From the NCBI GenBank assembly GCA_937995735.1, contig CALKIZ010000033.1:1-40158 (forward strand): a stretch of 40,158 nucleotides of DNA, written 5' to 3'. A model generated the notes under the pieces. The model made no database searches. It saw nothing but the letters and a program-made list of their open reading frames with translations, and was not told the origin of the DNA. Made by a program: the position numbers and the translations under genes. The stretch comes from an uncultured Neomegalonema sp. GTDB lineage: Bacteria > Pseudomonadota > Alphaproteobacteria > Rhodobacterales > Rhodobacteraceae. Below, piece by piece: positions 3,658-11,952 of the stretch (positions are counted from its first letter, which is position 1; each line of letters opens with the position of its first letter).

Positions 3658-4482
3658 TTAAACCAAAGCCATAATCCGGCAATTACCGCCGGTTCCACCT
3701 GCGATTTTAGGGGCGGCAACGACGATGGTTGCACCAGCGGGCGGTACATCATCAAGACCGGCGATACACTCGATCCCCCAACGTCCCGAAGGCAGCCAAG
3801 CATAGTGCGTGTCGAATGTGCTGGACGCTCCGTGGTCGAGTGACAACGTGTCCGACGCCATACCGATTGCCGCGCGATCATCCATCAGCATTTTTGTTGC
3901 TTCGACGTGGAAGCCGGGAAAGTGCATCACGCCTTCATCATCGCGATTGGCAAAACCTTCGCTGGGGGCTTTGCCCGCCCAACCGGAATTCATGGCGATA
4001 CAAGCGCCCTCAGGGATCGTACCGAATTTGCTTTCCCAATCGGCCAGATCATCCGGGGTGAGTTGGTAATCAGGGTTTTCTGCTGCTTGTGCGCGCACAT
4101 CAATGACCACCAAGGGAAGGACCAGATCATCAAGCGGGATTTCATCTGCCGTCATGCCATCCGCGCTAAAGTGAATCGGCGCGTCGATATGTGTGCCGCA
4201 ATGTTCAACCATCGTATAACGGCGCGCGTTAAAACCGTTCTCCGCAAAATTTGTGAGCTGTTCAATCTGCAAAGCCCAATCAGGAATGTAAGTCGGAAAA
4301 TCCGGTGTCAGCGTTTGGCTGAGATCAACAACCCTGTGAAAGACGTTCGCCGATCTCGCGGCTGCTTCGCGTGTGGTTGTCGTTGCCGCTGCTGCGGTAA
4401 CCGCAAGTGCAGCGCTTCCCTTAAAGAAGCTACGGCGATTGAGTCGTTCATGAAGGACGGCGTGGCAACCCGGTACACACAT
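3658..4482 (-). CDS. TAT-exported cyclase-family metal-dependent hydrolase
   Basis: 274 residues. The motif H-C-G-T-H-I-D-A-P-I-H at residues 94-104 is the metal-binding signature (HxGTHxDxPxH) of the cyclase/kynurenine-formamidase family (PF04199), whose characterised members hydrolyse N-formylkynurenine or isatin. The fold spans about residues 50-270, the usual size. The N-terminus carries a twin-arginine signal (NRRSFFKG at 15-22, then an Ala-rich hydrophobic run to about 45), so the enzyme is probably exported folded with its metal. The ATG at 4482 is preceded by CAGGGAG at a good distance. It lies 84 bases downstream of the DUF3228 gene on the same strand, and dadA is upstream of that, so co-transcription under the glycine riboswitch is possible but unproven. 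The true substrate is unknown; arylformamidase is only one option. Confidence 0.85.
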   Translation of the reverse strand: MCVPGCHAVLHERLNRRSFFKGSAALAVTAAAATTTTREAAARSANVFHRVVDLSQTLTPDFPTYIPDWALQIEQLTNFAENGFNARRYTMVEHCGTHIDAPIHFSADGMTADEIPLDDLVLPLVVIDVRAQAAENPDYQLTPDDLADWESKFGTIPEGACIAMNSGWAGKAPSEGFANRDDEGVMHFPGFHVEATKMLMDDRAAIGMASDTLSLDHGASSTFDTHYAWLPSGRWGIECIAGLDDVPPAGATIVVAAPKIAGGTGGNCRIMALV

Positions 4483-4566
4483 GATTTTTCTCCCTGTAAA
4501 TGATCCTCAATACCATGGATCAATTTAGCAGGAGTTCAACAGGTCGAGATCACGATTGAGCGAATT

Positions 4567-5169
4567 TCAGCTTTGTTCCGCGCGCCGCACGGCTGCATGG
4601 TTTTCCCAAAACGCGACGGCTTTTTCGTAAGCCTTTTTATCAATCGCAACCCCTGATCCACCTTCGCTTGGACCTAACGCATTACGAAGTTGAGTAATAG
4701 GCGGCATCGGCGGTTCTGTCGGTGACAAAGTGCCCAGTGTGCTGACGATACCCCAGTCGCAATCGGGAACGTCTTCAGGAAAGGCATCGGCTTCGATGAG
4801 CAGCTGCGCGTGACTATAGAGGATGACATCTAAATGCGTGGCAACAGGCGCTTCGAAATCTTCAAACCAGCGTTCGAGAACCGCAAGCTCTCCTTCACGG
4901 CGCGCGATATAGCCGGATTTCAGGAATGGTCGGTTTTCATCCGTAATCGGCGCAAACCCGCATCGCGTTTGTGACGGATTTTCCAAAAACAAATGCTTGC
5001 AGAAGGATGCATACCCCTCAACCAGAGGCGCGCCGCTCGCAACCGCTTCATTGCATAGCGCGACCAAAGCATCCGGTTCGACTCCAACGATCCGAGTCCC
5101 GCTCGCCCCCGGTTCCCAGTTGCGACGGGCAAAAGATGTGAGAGCGATTACTGGTGTGGTGCGGGTCAT
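4567..5169 (-). CDS. DUF3228 family protein
   Basis: 200 residues matching what I recall of the DUF3228 family along its whole length: GVEPDALVAL near 30, YASFCKHLF near 53, RCGFAPITDEN near 69, SGYIARREGELAVL near 85, LDVILYSHAQL near 113 and RNALGPSEGGSG near 162. The family is found in bacteria and some eukaryotes and has no established biochemical role. There is no signal peptide or membrane segment, so it should be cytoplasmic. It lies between dadA (89 bases upstream) and the exported cyclase (84 bases downstream) on one strand, which suggests a shared transcript. The ATG at 5169 has only a weak ribosome-binding site. Confidence 0.8.
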   Translation of the reverse strand: MTRTTPVIALTSFARRNWEPGASGTRIVGVEPDALVALCNEAVASGAPLVEGYASFCKHLFLENPSQTRCGFAPITDENRPFLKSGYIARREGELAVLERWFEDFEAPVATHLDVILYSHAQLLIEADAFPEDVPDCDWGIVSTLGTLSPTEPPMPPITQLRNALGPSEGGSGVAIDKKAYEKAVAFWENHAAVRRAEQS

Positions 5170-5199
5170 AGCTTACGTCATTCTTTCGAGATGAAAGCC

Positions 5200-5240
5200 C
5201 TGAGGCAACGAAACTCTATCTTATGAGATCGAAGCCTCAG
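5200..5240 (-). terminator. Hairpin between dadA and the DUF3228 gene
   Basis: CTGAGGC (5200-5206) pairs with GCCTCAG (5234-5240). On the minus strand it follows the dadA stop codon by about 20 bases. It is not followed by a real T-run, so it may be a partial terminator, an mRNA-stability element, or nothing. Confidence 0.3.
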
Positions 5241-5258
5241 AGTGAACCCGCCACGTGC

Positions 5259-6518
5259 TTAGGCGGCTTTAGGAACCTCCACGGATATAAAGCTGTTCGA
5301 GTCCGATGCGCTAAGGACATTATCCGCAACAATTTCAGCGGTGGCAGCTGAGAGAGTCCAACCGAGATGACCGTGGCCTGTATTATAGAACACACCGGAT
5401 TTTCTGCCCGCGCCAACTTTAGGCATCATATTCGGCATCATCGGGCGCAGGCCGGCCCAAGGCACAGCATGTTCGGTTCGCACGTTAGGGAATAAATCTT
5501 CAACCCATTTTACCAAGGGGGCAATCCGGTCGTTGCGAATGTCTTTGTTGTATCCGTTGAACTCTGCCGTCCCTGCAACGCGAAAACGATCCGGCCCGAG
5601 GCGGCTCGTGACGACTTTTGCTTTATCGTCCAGCAAGCTAACCCACGGCGCTGCGGCGCGGCTTTCATCATCGTTCAGGTTTACAGTGATCGAATAGCCT
5701 TTCACCGGATAAGTATTTACCCGGTCGCCGAGCTTGGCCGCCAGATCGCGTGATCCGACACCGGCACATAGTACGATAGCATCGAACAGCGCATCTTGCT
5801 GAGCCTCGCCTGAGGTCCAACCAATCCGAACGCCTTCACCAGAGTGTTTCAGCGTCTCAACCTGCGCGCCGTATTCAAATGTGACGCCTCGGCGCTGGCA
5901 GGCTTTGCCTAACTCGCGGCTGTAATTATGAATATCGCCCGTGAAATCACTTTTGGTGTAATAGCCGCCATAGAGGTTGGCGGGCAGGGCAGGGTCAATC
6001 GCCTGCATCGCGGCGGCATCGACTGCCTCGCGCGACAAGCCGCCTTCCGCGAGCAGAGCGTTCACCTTCGTCGCGTGGTCATAGTCTTTTTTGTTGTCAT
6101 AGACATGCAAGATGCCGCGTTCTTCGCAATCGAACGAGAAACCCTCTCGGGCAGCGTGTTCTTTAAGGTGTTCACGCGCCGCAATCGCCAGCCGGACGGT
6201 TTCAACCGTGTTGTTCCGGTATTGCGGGATTGAGGCCATAAATTCGGCCATCCACGAATATTTGTGCCAGCTCGGTTTCGGGTTAACCAATAGCGGAGCA
6301 TCGGGGCTGAACATCCACTTGATGCCTTTGAAGATCGTGGACCATTGGGTCCAGACTTCTGCATTAGAGGCAGAAAGCTGACCACCATTCGCGAACGACG
6401 TTTCCATTGCTGCATAGCGGTTGCGATCAAATACAGTGACCTCAAACCCACGGTTGAGCAGCGCATAAGCAGTGGTAATGCCGGTAATACCAGCACCAAT
6501 AACAGCAATTTTCCGCAT
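5259..6518 (-). CDS. dadA: D-amino acid dehydrogenase (FAD-dependent, DadA-type)
   Basis: 419 residues from the ATG at 6518, the usual DadA length. The frame is open 18 codons further upstream, but AGAAGG at 6528-6533 sits at the right distance before 6518, and the protein then starts directly with the FAD-binding MRKIAVIGAGITGITTAYAL (GxGxxG). SxANGGQLS near residue 45 and GHGHLGWTLS near 393 are typical of the DadA branch of glycine/D-amino-acid oxidases. These enzymes deaminate D-amino acids oxidatively and pass electrons to the quinone pool at the membrane. The leader carries a tandem glycine riboswitch, so glycine should control the gene; the enzyme may act on glycine or a glycine-linked substrate rather than only D-alanine. 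The DUF3228 and cyclase genes follow on the same strand. Confidence 0.88.
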   Translation of the reverse strand: MRKIAVIGAGITGITTAYALLNRGFEVTVFDRNRYAAMETSFANGGQLSASNAEVWTQWSTIFKGIKWMFSPDAPLLVNPKPSWHKYSWMAEFMASIPQYRNNTVETVRLAIAAREHLKEHAAREGFSFDCEERGILHVYDNKKDYDHATKVNALLAEGGLSREAVDAAAMQAIDPALPANLYGGYYTKSDFTGDIHNYSRELGKACQRRGVTFEYGAQVETLKHSGEGVRIGWTSGEAQQDALFDAIVLCAGVGSRDLAAKLGDRVNTYPVKGYSITVNLNDDESRAAAPWVSLLDDKAKVVTSRLGPDRFRVAGTAEFNGYNKDIRNDRIAPLVKWVEDLFPNVRTEHAVPWAGLRPMMPNMMPKVGAGRKSGVFYNTGHGHLGWTLSAATAEIVADNVLSASDSNSFISVEVPKAA

Positions 6519-6547
6519 AATACGGTTCCTTCTCGCAAACAGGTTAT

Positions 6548-6561
6548 GCCGGTGAACCGGC
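6548..6561 (-). promoter_or_regulatory. Hairpin in the riboswitch expression platform
   Basis: GCCGG-ttca-CCGGC on the minus strand lies between the second glycine aptamer and the dadA ribosome-binding site. It has no T-run, so it is more likely part of a translational switch or a spacer than a terminator. Confidence 0.4.
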
Positions 6562-6572
6562 CCAATTCCCAT

Positions 6573-6746
6573 CTGTCGCGGAACCTGAGAGTTTTGCCCG
6601 AGATAGTGGCCTCAGACGTCTCCTTCGGTGGGTGATCTTTGAATCACCACTCTCCAGATTGCTGTCATCATGCGGTCCGTTTGCCTGAGAGTTTCCGGGA
6701 AGTTGCTCCTTCGGCGCCGGACAATGTGTCCGATCTCTCCCGCATG
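6573..6746 (-). promoter_or_regulatory. Tandem glycine riboswitch upstream of dadA
   Basis: Read on the minus strand, two consecutive glycine-aptamer cores are visible. Aptamer 1 (about 6746-6668) has GGGAGAGA, CCGAAGGAGCAA and AACTCTCAGGCAAA followed by GGACCG; its P1 stem is closed by TCATGCGG pairing with CCGCATGA. Aptamer 2 (about 6657-6573) has TGGAGAGTGG, CACCGAAGGAG and AAACTCTCAGG, with ATCTG/CAGAT closing P1. The short linker between them is typical of the tandem class. A leader of about 50 bases with a small hairpin then leads to the dadA ribosome-binding site. These motifs are the hallmark of the family, which usually activates glycine-catabolism genes when glycine is high. Divergent murI begins about 90 bases to the right, so the promoter must lie in that short gap. 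Confidence 0.93.
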
Positions 6747-6835
6747 ACAATATATCAGCACCTTGAACATGACAGATTTGCCCCTATCAAGCAAGCTGAT
6801 TGCGCTTGTTGGCTCATCAAGTTACTGCGGCTGGC

Positions 6836-7657
6836 ATGAATGAAAAACGTGCAGTGATTGGTGTATTCGACTCTGGTTTGGGCGGGTTAACCGTGTTGGC
6901 CGCGCTGCGCCGTGCCATGCCGCAGCAGGATTTCGTGTATCTCGGGGATAACGCCAATGCGCCTTACGGCGTTCGCACACCCGTAGAGGTCACGGCATTA
7001 ACCAAATCTGCTGTTGAGCGTCTTTTTGCGGAAGGGTGCGGGTTGGTCCTTATCGCTTGTAATACGGCGTCCGCCCTTGCTTTGCGGACGTTGCAACAGG
7101 AATGGCTACCGACAGTGGCTCCGGATCGCAGGCTGCTCGGAGTGTTTGTTCCCTTGATCGAGGCATTGACTGGGCGGGGCTGGCGGGATCAACCGGGCGC
7201 AGCTCCTCTTCAGAAAGCTGCGTTTTTCGCAACGCCTGCCACGGTTAAAAGCGGTGCGTTCACCGCAGACGCTCAACGCCTTGCACCTGATCTGACGATT
7301 ATCGAGCAAGACTGCCCCGGTTTGGTCGATGCCATTGAGACGGGAAACCCCGTCGATGACATTGTGAATCGGGCGGTTGCCACAGCTTTAAAAGGCGGTA
7401 AGCCCGATGCCGCATTACTGGGCTGCACACATTATCCTCATGCCGAAGCCGCGTTTCGCGCTGCCCTTCCGGTCGGCACGCCGATTATGTCTCAGCCACA
7501 AGTGGTCGCAGAAAGCCTCGCCTCTTATCTCACGCGCCATCCCCAGTTTCGGGGAGGCACGGGTTGGCTCGATTGCCTGACAACCGGCGACCCTGCTCAT
7601 GTCAGCGCCCGTGCGGAAGCCTTGTTTCAACGCGCCCTTCCGTTTGATGCGGCTTGA
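6836..7657 (+). CDS. murI: Glutamate racemase
   Basis: 273 residues. It interconverts L- and D-glutamate in the cytoplasm to supply D-Glu for peptidoglycan. The catalytic elements are present: FDSGLGG with D12-S13, the first catalytic Cys at 75 in ACNTAS, and the second at 197 in GCTHYPH with H199. The frame is open 12 codons upstream to 6800, but the ATG at 6836 gives the usual length and starts three residues before the conserved core. The site before it is weak (GGCTGG). It is divergent from the riboswitch-controlled dadA and is followed 70 bases later by the ATC-hydrolase-family gene on the same strand. Confidence 0.93.
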   Translation: MNEKRAVIGVFDSGLGGLTVLAALRRAMPQQDFVYLGDNANAPYGVRTPVEVTALTKSAVERLFAEGCGLVLIACNTASALALRTLQQEWLPTVAPDRRLLGVFVPLIEALTGRGWRDQPGAAPLQKAAFFATPATVKSGAFTADAQRLAPDLTIIEQDCPGLVDAIETGNPVDDIVNRAVATALKGGKPDAALLGCTHYPHAEAAFRAALPVGTPIMSQPQVVAESLASYLTRHPQFRGGTGWLDCLTTGDPAHVSARAEALFQRALPFDAA

Positions 7658-7727
7658 CGGCTATCTAAACCCTTTGCGTCGCCGATTACCTTGTTACGAT
7701 AGGCGTGTGCCCAAGCCGGAGAAACCA

Positions 7728-8207
7728 ATGTCCAAAACCGATCTGCCAATTCTCGAACAACGCCGCATTGAAGCGAATATCATCAAGCCGATTTATGATG
7801 AAATGGTCGCAGAGCTTGGCGAGGAACAAGCCAAAAAGATTGTTGGCAATGCAATTATCAAAAATTCCATCGAACAGGGCCGCGCCTATGCCGAAAGCGA
7901 AGACGGCGAAGCAAACCTAGAGAGTTTCCACGCACTCCTGCCGCAATGGAAAGCAAACGGGGCATTGGAACTTGATATGTTGAAGGAAACGAAAACCGAA
8001 GTGCATTACAATGTGACGCGGTGTCGATACGCTGAGATGTATCGCGATATGGGCATAGGCGATATTGGCCATCTGTTATCTTGCAACCGCGATGGCACGT
8101 TTTGCACCGGCTATAGTCCAGACATCACCCTTGTACGCACCCAGACAATCATGGAAGGCGCAAGTCACTGCGATTTCCGGTATCGGATAAACACCGGCAA
8201 GGCTTAA
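7728..8207 (+). CDS. L-2-amino-thiazoline-4-carboxylic acid hydrolase family protein
   Basis: 159 residues from the ATG at 7728, which has GGAG at a good distance. The frame is open upstream into murI, but that part overlaps another gene and is not conserved-looking. The C-terminal half carries the family signature: YNVTRCRYAEMYR near 91, IGHLLSCNRDGTFCTGY near 112 and LVRTQTIMEGASHCDFRY near 134. In Pseudomonas the founding enzyme opens the thiazoline ring of ATC on the way to L-cysteine; most genomic members lack a tested substrate. Conserved Cys residues lie in RCRY, LSCNRD and SHCDF. No signal peptide is visible. It may share a transcript with murI. Confidence 0.8.
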   Translation: MSKTDLPILEQRRIEANIIKPIYDEMVAELGEEQAKKIVGNAIIKNSIEQGRAYAESEDGEANLESFHALLPQWKANGALELDMLKETKTEVHYNVTRCRYAEMYRDMGIGDIGHLLSCNRDGTFCTGYSPDITLVRTQTIMEGASHCDFRYRINTGKA

Positions 8208-9927: not shown

Positions 9928-10210
9928 CAAGAATCCCCCAGCAATATTGCCGGCACGCTAACGGATTTGATCTGTCGAGTCAGTCGTGAGTATGGGATTA
10001 TTACGCGGCCTTTAGAGTGTGATTGATCGTTGCGAAACGCAGCTTATGCGGTTTTCGATACTCTGATTTTCGTGGTGTACGAAATACGTCTAACGATCCT
10101 GTGATCCCACATGCCTCACTGATGCCCCGTTCAGCTGATTGTGAAGTAACATATGCACGACAGGCTGTGGGCGAAGCTATATTGTGCCACGAATTAAAGT
10201 GAGGTCTTTT

Positions 10211-10798
10211 ATGTTTAAACACTTGATCGCAGGGGTATTTTTTGCCCTCACGTCTTTTGCGGTGAGCGCGCCGTTGCACGCCGCCGGAACCGAGACGATT
10301 GAAAGTCAGATCATTACCGGATTTCCGCCCTTTGCTCCACCCACCGGAGATATTGTATTTGAAGACGGGACGGTTAAGACGCTTGCGGATTATCCCGGCG
10401 AACTTGTCCTCGCAACGGTTTGGTTTACTACCTGCCCAAATTGCCAGATCGAAATGCCCGAACTGAGCAAGCTGTCAAAACTGCTCAAGGATAAAGGTCT
10501 TGATAAAATTCGCGTGCTGCCGATTTCGATTGATGAAATCGTATTCCGCGAGCCGCCGGAAGATGCGATGGCGCGCGTCAGGCGCTATTACGACCGCCGC
10601 AAGCTGGATCATTTGCCCGTCGCTCTCGACTTGAGCGCCCGCAATGCCGGTCATCTTTTTAGTCCTGATCCGGTTGGCACGCCTACGACCTTTATTATTG
10701 CTCCAACGGGGGATGTCATTGGGGTTCTGCAAGGCTGGAAAGTCAATTGGACCTCTGATGAGAGCATTGCTTATCTTCGTTCATTGGCAGGTGTATAA
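10211..10798 (+). CDS. Secreted TlpA-like thioredoxin-fold protein (first of three)
   Basis: 195 residues. The N-terminal signal peptide runs to about residue 25 (MFKHLIAGVFFALTSF...APLHAAG), so the protein acts in the periplasm. The redoxin domain covers about 45-195, with the CPNC active site at 75-78 in WFTTCPNCQIEMPEL and the cis-proline loop in GTPTTFII. Length and order match TlpA/ResA-like disulfide reductases. The ATG at 10211 follows GTGAGG; a longer start at 10184 would disrupt the signal peptide. The stop overlaps the next start by one base (TAATG), so genes one and two are coupled. The partner or substrate is unknown. Confidence 0.82.
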   Translation: MFKHLIAGVFFALTSFAVSAPLHAAGTETIESQIITGFPPFAPPTGDIVFEDGTVKTLADYPGELVLATVWFTTCPNCQIEMPELSKLSKLLKDKGLDKIRVLPISIDEIVFREPPEDAMARVRRYYDRRKLDHLPVALDLSARNAGHLFSPDPVGTPTTFIIAPTGDVIGVLQGWKVNWTSDESIAYLRSLAGV

Positions 10799-11352
10799 TG
10801 AGAGCGTTTATCCTTGGTTTTATGCTGTCGTTGATGGGTGTATCCGTTGCAGCAGCTTGCGCAAATCCGATGCGCAGCGATATTTTCATTTATCCCGGCT
10901 TCAAAAAGTTTCCTGCACCTGAGACGCCGCCGGATGTGGCCTGGAAACGTCCTGATGGCAGTGAAGGCAAACTTGCAGACTTGCGCGGTAAGCCATCATT
11001 GGTGACATTCTGGTTTCCGAGATGTCCGGGATGTCAGTTCGAAGGGCCGTCTTTGAATGCGATGCTTGATCGGGTGAAACCTGAAGGTCAAATCAATTTC
11101 CTCGCATTGTCTGTGCAAGGAGAGCGGGAAGAGGTTGTCCAATACCTCGCGCAGCGCGGTTATAAATCAATGGACCCAAATATTGATGAGGGCGCGACGC
11201 TCTTTAGCGAGTTATGCTTTCGTGCAACGCCGGTGCATTTGATACTGGATACCAACGCAGAGATGGTCGCCGTCCTTGTTGGGCCGCAAGATTGGGAAGG
11301 CCCGAAAGCAACGTCTTTGATCAATGCTCTTATTGCTGATGGTGGCGTCTAA
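10798..11352 (+). CDS. Secreted TlpA-like thioredoxin-fold protein (second of three)
   Basis: 184 residues with a short signal peptide to about residue 20, followed by Cys21 in VAAAC-AN. This could be an atypical lipobox, so a lipoprotein is possible. The active site is CPGC at 76-79 in WFPRCPGCQFEGPSL, and the cis-Pro is in RATPVHLILD. A further Cys lies at FSELCFRATP. The gene is translationally coupled to the previous one. It has diverged most of the three: the Glu-Met-Pro after the active site, present in its neighbours, is replaced by Glu-Gly-Pro. It is probably a thiol-disulfide oxidoreductase or a redoxin, target unknown. Confidence 0.8.
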   Translation: MRAFILGFMLSLMGVSVAAACANPMRSDIFIYPGFKKFPAPETPPDVAWKRPDGSEGKLADLRGKPSLVTFWFPRCPGCQFEGPSLNAMLDRVKPEGQINFLALSVQGEREEVVQYLAQRGYKSMDPNIDEGATLFSELCFRATPVHLILDTNAEMVAVLVGPQDWEGPKATSLINALIADGGV

Positions 11353-11409
11353 CGGCGTCTGGTTATTCATATTAGCGCATCGCGCGCGTTTAATAAGAAA
11401 GGTCGCCTT

Positions 11410-11952
11410 ATGCGTCTCTTAGCTCTTATCACTGCCTTTGTGGTGGCGTTCAGCGTTCCCGTCTTTGCACAGCCGGGATTTGCGTCAAATGTGACACTGA
11501 CCGACGGAACGAAGACTGTTCCGGATAATGCGATTGTCTTTGCGGATGGACGACAGGGAAGTCTAGCGGATTATCGCGGTGAGGTGCTTGTCGTGACGAT
11601 GTGGCAAGTTCATTGCCCGTTTTGCCGCCGGGAAATGCCCGTTTTAGATCGTCTCGCCGCCGATATGAAAGCGGAGGGTGTTCGTGTTGTGCCGCTTGGT
11701 CTTGATCAAGATATGGGCGCTATCACGGCCCATTTGGATCGGATGAATTGGCCTAACCTTCCGGCAATTCAGGATATCGACATGCTCAATGGCTTGATCA
11801 TGAGCGTCGAACATTTTGGCCGTTTGGGGGTGGCCACGCCAACAACGTTCATTGTTGATAAAAACGGTAAGGTTGCTGCATCCGTCCTGGGACTGGTGGA
11901 CTGGGATGGCGAAGCCGCGCGTGGATATTTACGTTCCCTAGCGGCGGGATAG
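11410..11952 (+). CDS. Secreted TlpA-like thioredoxin-fold protein (third of three)
   Basis: 180 residues with a signal peptide ending near VFAQP (residue 20). The active site is CPFC at 69-72 in WQVHCPFCRREMPVL and the cis-Pro is in VATPTTFIVDKNG. It resembles the first protein of the set most closely, sharing the xxDGxxxSLADYxGE approach to the active site and the ending YLRSLAAG. AAAGG precedes the ATG, and a 57-base spacer separates it from the second gene. A strong terminator lies 33 bases after the stop and closes the cassette. Confidence 0.82.
   Translation: MRLLALITAFVVAFSVPVFAQPGFASNVTLTDGTKTVPDNAIVFADGRQGSLADYRGEVLVVTMWQVHCPFCRREMPVLDRLAADMKAEGVRVVPLGLDQDMGAITAHLDRMNWPNLPAIQDIDMLNGLIMSVEHFGRLGVATPTTFIVDKNGKVAASVLGLVDWDGEAARGYLRSLAAG

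Follow-up and report, generated by a model that had tools for sequence, protein, structure and literature searches.

A Tandem Glycine Riboswitch before a DadA-Type Flavoenzyme Gene of Probable Glycine-Oxidizing Function in an Uncultured Neomegalonema

Introduction

The glycine riboswitch (RF00504) and the DadA6-like glycine oxidase are each of a known kind. The tandem riboswitch that controls gcvTHP is built like the element found in the window (the whole stretch of 40,158 nucleotides that was analysed, from contig CALKIZ010000033.1 of an uncultured Neomegalonema sp.): both consist of two tandem aptamers with the same core. The difference lies in the controlled gene, which in the window encodes a DadA-type flavoenzyme. 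The window's own genome also carries a second tandem pair of glycine aptamers, before gcvTHP. In aptamer 2, the window has a variable anti-Shine-Dalgarno sequence between CAGG and GAC, whereas the gcv copy reads CAACAG there. Single-aptamer glycine riboswitches offer a further comparison: aptamer 1 only was recognized, by the CTCTCAGG motif, at 7 of 80 named dadA loci, whereas the window holds the full tandem.

Among the proteins, canonical DadA (NF001933) is a flavoprotein homologous to the DadA of the window, but is set apart from it in the tree, in its residues and in the lack of a riboswitch at the sampled loci. ThiO, a glycine oxidase with a role in thiamine synthesis, has the FAD fold in common with the window's DadA, and glycine oxidases are its closest solved structures. 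A further relative is DadA6 of Cupriavidus necator, which probably shares its subfamily and locus type with the window's dadA. In the available part of the report on this organism (PMC11879842), dadA6 is termed a glycine oxidase, a name also used in other work on C. necator. It was tested there as a possible wasteful glycine sink in engineered strains that use the reductive glycine pathway, and its deletion improved neither growth rate nor yield any further. That part of the report mentions no glycine riboswitch for DadA6.

A glycine riboswitch linked to dadA or to a D-amino acid dehydrogenase was not found in the open literature; the supplementary regulon list of PMC3766115 lay outside the scope of that search, and an earlier listing is possible there.

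The dadA Locus and Its Riboswitch

The initial annotation had placed a tandem glycine riboswitch on the minus strand directly before dadA. This is confirmed by two matches to RF00504 (Table 1), both of which score over the gathering score of 32 in Infernal. The search of the whole window at the gathering threshold returned aptamer 1 only, and aptamer 2 was added in E-value mode on positions 6480-6800; in the search of the own genome, aptamer 2 reached 53.3 bits at 6563-6667. The two aptamers lie back to back, 49 nt from the start of dadA at 6518, and the GGAGAG / CCGAAGG / CTCTCAGG core is present in both. According to the RF00504 alignment, two of the eight pairs in P1 of aptamer 2 are non-standard. 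Nothing like a sigma-70 promoter was seen ahead of aptamer 1 in a simple scan of positions 4400-6950.

Table 1. Coordinates of the features around dadA in the window.
Feature	Position	Strand	Evidence
Glycine aptamer 1	6663..6752	-	RF00504, 72.6 bits, E 1.9e-13, full model 1-94
Glycine aptamer 2	6568..6662	-	RF00504, 37.4 bits, E 3e-6, model 6-89
Switching strand, 3' part of aptamer 2	6568..6585	-	P1 3' strand 6575-6568 and anti-Shine-Dalgarno GGTTCC 6585-6580
Inner hairpin GCCGG-TTCA-CCGGC, tip of sequestering hairpin	6548..6561	-	Read in sequence, and fold
Sequestering strand with ribosome-binding site	6524..6543	-	Fold and pair list, hairpin -27.5 kcal/mol
Shine-Dalgarno AAGGA, 8 nt before ATG	6527..6531	-	Read from sequence
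dadA, DadA-type flavoprotein, PRK12409 subfamily, 419 aa	5259..6518	-	NF009074 704.5 bits; PF01266 230.4 bits
DUF3228 protein, downstream, lineage-specific neighbour	4567..5169	-	PF11539 204 bits
Putative cyclase (PF04199), weak TAT signal, lineage-specific neighbour	3658..4482	-	Family search
Glutamate racemase-like gene, divergent, then L-2-amino-thiazoline-4-carboxylic acid hydrolase-family gene	6833-8207	+	Family searches

Read from the ATG at 6518, the protein exceeds the curated cut-off of NF009074 (PRK12409), with 704.5 against 494 bits; an alternative start at 6572 in the list of open reading frames lies inside aptamer 2. The protein does not reach the cut-off of canonical DadA (NF001933 / PRK00711; 346.8 against 383 bits) or that of ThiO (TIGR02352; 127.6 against 250.8 bits).

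The genes that follow dadA had also been read as members of the same system. Their order, DUF3228 and then the cyclase, is as first described, while the export of the cyclase is backed by a TAT-signal match of 20.5 bits that falls just under the Pfam cut-off of 22.7. Their part in a glycine system was not supported, and the two were rejected as conserved partners of dadA: in eight regions from relatives, DUF3228 comes after dadA twice (one of these two contigs ends there) and the cyclase once, and no copy of either was detected in 80 wider dadA loci, 17 of which do not extend over the full 4 kb on both sides. Both look like riders on the transcript, outside the conserved unit. Further along the plus strand, at 10184-11952, three successive thioredoxin-like exported proteins are encoded, which were named by the CxxC pattern in their translations.

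Co-Occurrence of the Riboswitch and dadA

The possibility that the link is local to the genome of the window was rejected, as it recurs across the sampled genomes and the named loci. Sampling of 61 genomes from the own genus, family and class gave 15 genes that pass the NF009074 cut-off. Every one of these immediately follows a glycine aptamer, as established by reading the loci in 13 cases and by coordinates in two (G021 and G031). Among 385 genomes sampled across the class, 7 of 8 NF009074 genes have an upstream aptamer, and among 398 sampled across the phylum, 24 of 25 do. The one missing from the former is L042, which scores 490.9 bits for NF009074 and has a stop in the match; the one missing from the latter is L066. 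Counted without duplication and with the own genome included, 43 of the 45 genomes with an NF009074 gene have the glycine aptamer upstream.

The named loci extend this picture: of the best 80, 79 carry the element ahead of dadA; L134 is the exception, and two loci are cut by a contig end. The aptamer model used for these loci was built from 25 other aptamers. Since the 80 are the top of at least 589 tblastn matches (E up to 1e-3), they are the nearest relatives rather than a random draw; subfamily membership of all 589 is not implied, and some of the 80 are possibly of the same species as the sampled genomes. They come from Rhodobacteraceae, Rhizobiales, Burkholderiales, relatives of Halomonas, Marinobacter and Granulosicoccus. 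L134 and L066 belong to the riboswitch clade and have no detectable glycine aptamer; the genome of L066 is small, at 2.1 Mb.

Comparison with Canonical DadA

At canonical DadA (NF001933) loci, searched with 1.5 kb flanks, the custom aptamer model found no glycine aptamer in any of the 30 best-scoring, and Rfam found no RF00504 in a subset of 20 of these. The idea of an element common to all dadA genes was rejected on its absence from the sampled canonical loci. The same division appears in a tree built from 65 proteins (below 76% identity after thinning, six of them included irrespective of it), where a branch with a support of 100/100 parts canonical DadA from all riboswitch-linked genes and from four element-less ones. 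Two of the four, L042 and L043, are distant long branches; L066 and L134 lie inside the group and look like losses of the riboswitch. Three changes of the riboswitch label suffice on this tree, against a mean of 18.4 for shuffled labels. The groups are also parted at 37 positions, one of them a gap, when 119 proteins are compared with 31 at thresholds of more than 90% and more than 85%; for example, the riboswitch group and the window have N52 and H384 where canonical DadA has Y52 and T384.

These results bear on an alternative already raised by the initial annotation, namely that D-amino-acid breakdown is sensed through glycine. In that case glycine would be no more than a proxy for amino-acid or cell-wall turnover, and the enzyme would be a genuine D-amino acid dehydrogenase. 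The NCBIfam name of NF009074 speaks for it, as do the fold and FAD domain held in common with D-amino acid oxidizing enzymes and the glutamate racemase-like gene that diverges from dadA. However, this gene scores 136.9 bits for TIGR00067, just under the cut-off of 146.65, and among the eight relatives' regions and the 80 wider loci it adjoins dadA only in the two nearest relatives. The separating residues and the naming of C. necator DadA6 as a glycine oxidase, in the available part of PMC11879842, also count against a D-amino acid substrate. This alternative became less likely because the sampled canonical loci are without the element, whereas the PRK12409 subfamily almost always has it, and we now consider it unlikely. 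The label "D-amino acid dehydrogenase" of the NF009074/PRK12409 family is probably wrong.

Probable Substrate of the Enzyme

When the window's DadA was compared with sequences in the PDB, seven of the eight matches were named glycine oxidase, the best being 7cyx (E 2.8e-11). An AlphaFold2 model (pLDDT 83.8) gave the glycine oxidase 4ysh as the best fold match, with a TM-score of 0.72 by query length. The next fold matches were sarcosine, iminodiacetate and dimethylglycine oxidases, and D-arginine dehydrogenase ranked lower. Since these oxidases of small amines stand near in the fold ranking and the best TM-score is only 0.72, another small amine is possible as the substrate. One such proposal has a glycine derivative, for example sarcosine or iminodiacetate, as the substrate, with the glycine released feeding back via the switch. 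While the fold matches just named would fit this proposal, the sequence matches favour glycine oxidases, and an ON switch that responds to the product would amplify itself; we hold it to be very unlikely.

The comparison with Cupriavidus leads back to glycine as the substrate. For the dadA6-rev primer given in PMC11879842, two of three Cupriavidus loci have a matching site some 1.2 kb upstream of the riboswitch-linked dadA, with one mismatch in C. lacunae (L145) and two in C. neocaledonicus (L155; 0 of 200 shuffles). No match to it was found in the third locus, L154. The dadA6-for primer from the same source matched at chance level at best in the three loci, of which L145 ends 0.3 kb behind the gene; across 60 Cupriavidus genomes, it gave one exact match, with no dadA within the 9 kb fetched. 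As one of the two primers matches, the link between DadA6 and the riboswitch-linked dadA is good, but not complete.

The pairing of riboswitch and gene is so widespread in relatives that the enzyme is more likely to be glycine-oxidizing. Taken together with the structural matches, this makes the DadA of the window a probable glycine oxidase or dehydrogenase. A route for the breakdown of glycine itself, one of the readings first offered for this locus, is thus supported at the predicted level.

Expression Platform

The control of dadA was proposed to be translational, on the basis of the hairpin at 6548-6561 and the position of the ribosome-binding site. The hairpin is present (Table 1), and translational control is supported by an alternative pairing that sequesters the ribosome-binding site, by the preference of leaders for their own pairing partner and by the absence of any terminator-like site between aptamer 2 and dadA in the simple scan of 4400-6950. 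Two pairings are open to the switching strand. It can pair with 6662-6655, which gives P1 of aptamer 2 in the RF00504 alignment, or with 6543-6524, where the fold joins GGTTCC (6585-6580) to GGAACC (6529-6524). In the minimum-energy fold, P1 of aptamer 1 is intact, P1 of aptamer 2 is lost to the pairing of 6585-6568 with 6543-6524, and the ribosome-binding site is hidden. Barring the ribosome-binding stretch from pairing costs 4.1 kcal/mol (from -52.6 to -48.5). Judged by folding and own-partner preference, the platform and the ligand-bound aptamer 2 are mutually exclusive. Since P1 of aptamer 2 and the sequestering hairpin share 6575-6568, the two states exclude each other and glycine should free the ribosome-binding site. 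The folding model predicts a translational ON switch for the dadA leader of the window, with the direction of switching inferred from this sharing.

The own-partner preference was seen across relatives. Over 108 leaders, aptamer-2 strands pair better, on average, with the ribosome-binding region of their own leader than with the regions of others. For the leaders below 70% protein identity (n = 25), the mean is -16.0 kcal/mol with the own partner and -13.8 kcal/mol with permuted ones, a result reached in 1 of 50,000 permutations. At below 65% protein identity (n = 11) the count was 8 of 50,000, and a first test on 17 leaders had given 64 of 20,000. A control segment just upstream showed no significant preference, with 4,250 (n = 25), 2,221 (n = 35) and 13,590 (n = 57) of 20,000. 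In 91 of 108 leaders, the minimum-energy fold has the Shine-Dalgarno core base-paired, a count made without a shuffle control. Pairing is weak in L039, L040, L061 and L063, at -7.5 to -8.3 kcal/mol.

Of the 118 leaders with a motif that formed the starting set for these tests, 108 were used in the main one. Left out were eight one-motif loci, L045 (in-frame stop in the gene) and L039 (leader under 55 nt). The one-motif loci dropped include L099, which is probably a tandem missed by the motif pattern. L041 and L059 were dropped earlier, at the 39-leader set, and L066, L134, L042 and L043 are without the motif. L045 was part of the 39-leader set and is absent from the 17-leader test, the 108-leader test and the comparison of residue positions. 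This locus (G489) has retained its riboswitch while its dadA is broken by the in-frame stop, and is a possible pseudogene.

Some dadA leaders depart from the tandem layout. In L100, L101, L102, L107, L108, L109 and L114, and also in L059, aptamer 1 alone is recognizable, and aptamer 2 is without the CTCTCAGG core; a strand able to pair with the ribosome-binding site remains in the same leaders, as judged by eye. From these sequences, the second aptamer may have decayed while the platform was retained.

The other possible arrangement is that the dadA riboswitch is a transcriptional or an OFF switch. Some glycine riboswitches act on terminators, according to the available part of PMC2258182. However, dadA is preceded by no terminator-like site, and glycine binding should open the sequestering hairpin, since P1 of aptamer 2 uses one of its strands; such an arrangement is quite improbable, and the translational ON switch is the reading that we carry forward.

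Glycine Cleavage and the Fate of Glyoxylate

In 25 genomes of the window's family, four have both dadA and gcvP, 10 have dadA only, nine have gcvP only (one a fragment) and two have neither. This either/or pattern has a Fisher p of 0.015 with kinship ignored; 14 of the 25 genomes belong to one genus and seven are less than 90% complete. For dadA and gcvT, the corresponding counts are 3, 11, 8 and 3 (p = 0.017, kinship again ignored), at a self-set gcvT threshold of 280 bits that excludes longer paralogues. One such paralogue is that of G009, which scores 236.2 bits, just over the curated 235.85, in a frame of 844 aa. The window's own genome has both dadA and gcvP, against the pattern.

Glyoxylate carboligase was tried as the next step and dropped, as none of the 25 genomes has a gene over the TIGR01504 cut-off. 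The own genome has malate synthase G, as do 18 of the 31 genomes searched in all, so that the enzyme is not specific. Given this enzyme and the lack of a carboligase over the cut-off in the 25 genomes, glyoxylate may be passed on to malate.

Implications

The joint reading, which we consider quite probable, is that of a glycine-driven translational ON switch of a PRK12409 flavoenzyme that oxidizes glycine. At low glycine, the 3' strand of aptamer 2 would pair with the stretch around the dadA ribosome-binding site and thereby hide this site. When glycine rises, P1 of aptamer 2 would close with the same 3' strand, and the ribosome-binding site would be freed. The enzyme made in this way would most likely convert glycine to glyoxylate and ammonia. 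Since glycine is its most likely substrate, the switch would open a glycine sink that is independent of the glycine cleavage system.

Towards a broader proposal we lean only slightly. The whole PRK12409 family would be glycine-oxidizing and marked by the riboswitch, and would provide many Pseudomonadota with a glycine sink that works without the glycine cleavage system and replaces it in some of the lineages near the window. A co-evolving anti-Shine-Dalgarno strand would have been made, in its riboswitch, from the variable part of aptamer 2.

A metabolite sensor that is conserved before a gene tells what the gene handles, a clue to function that protein annotation missed here. If the reading holds, the label would be corrected for a family present in probably hundreds of genomes (at least 589 tblastn relatives, of which the best 80 were examined), and glycine oxidation would join the glycine-riboswitch regulon. 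It would also be relevant to engineered strains that use the reductive glycine pathway, in which, according to the available part of PMC11879842, DadA6 was tested as a glycine sink.
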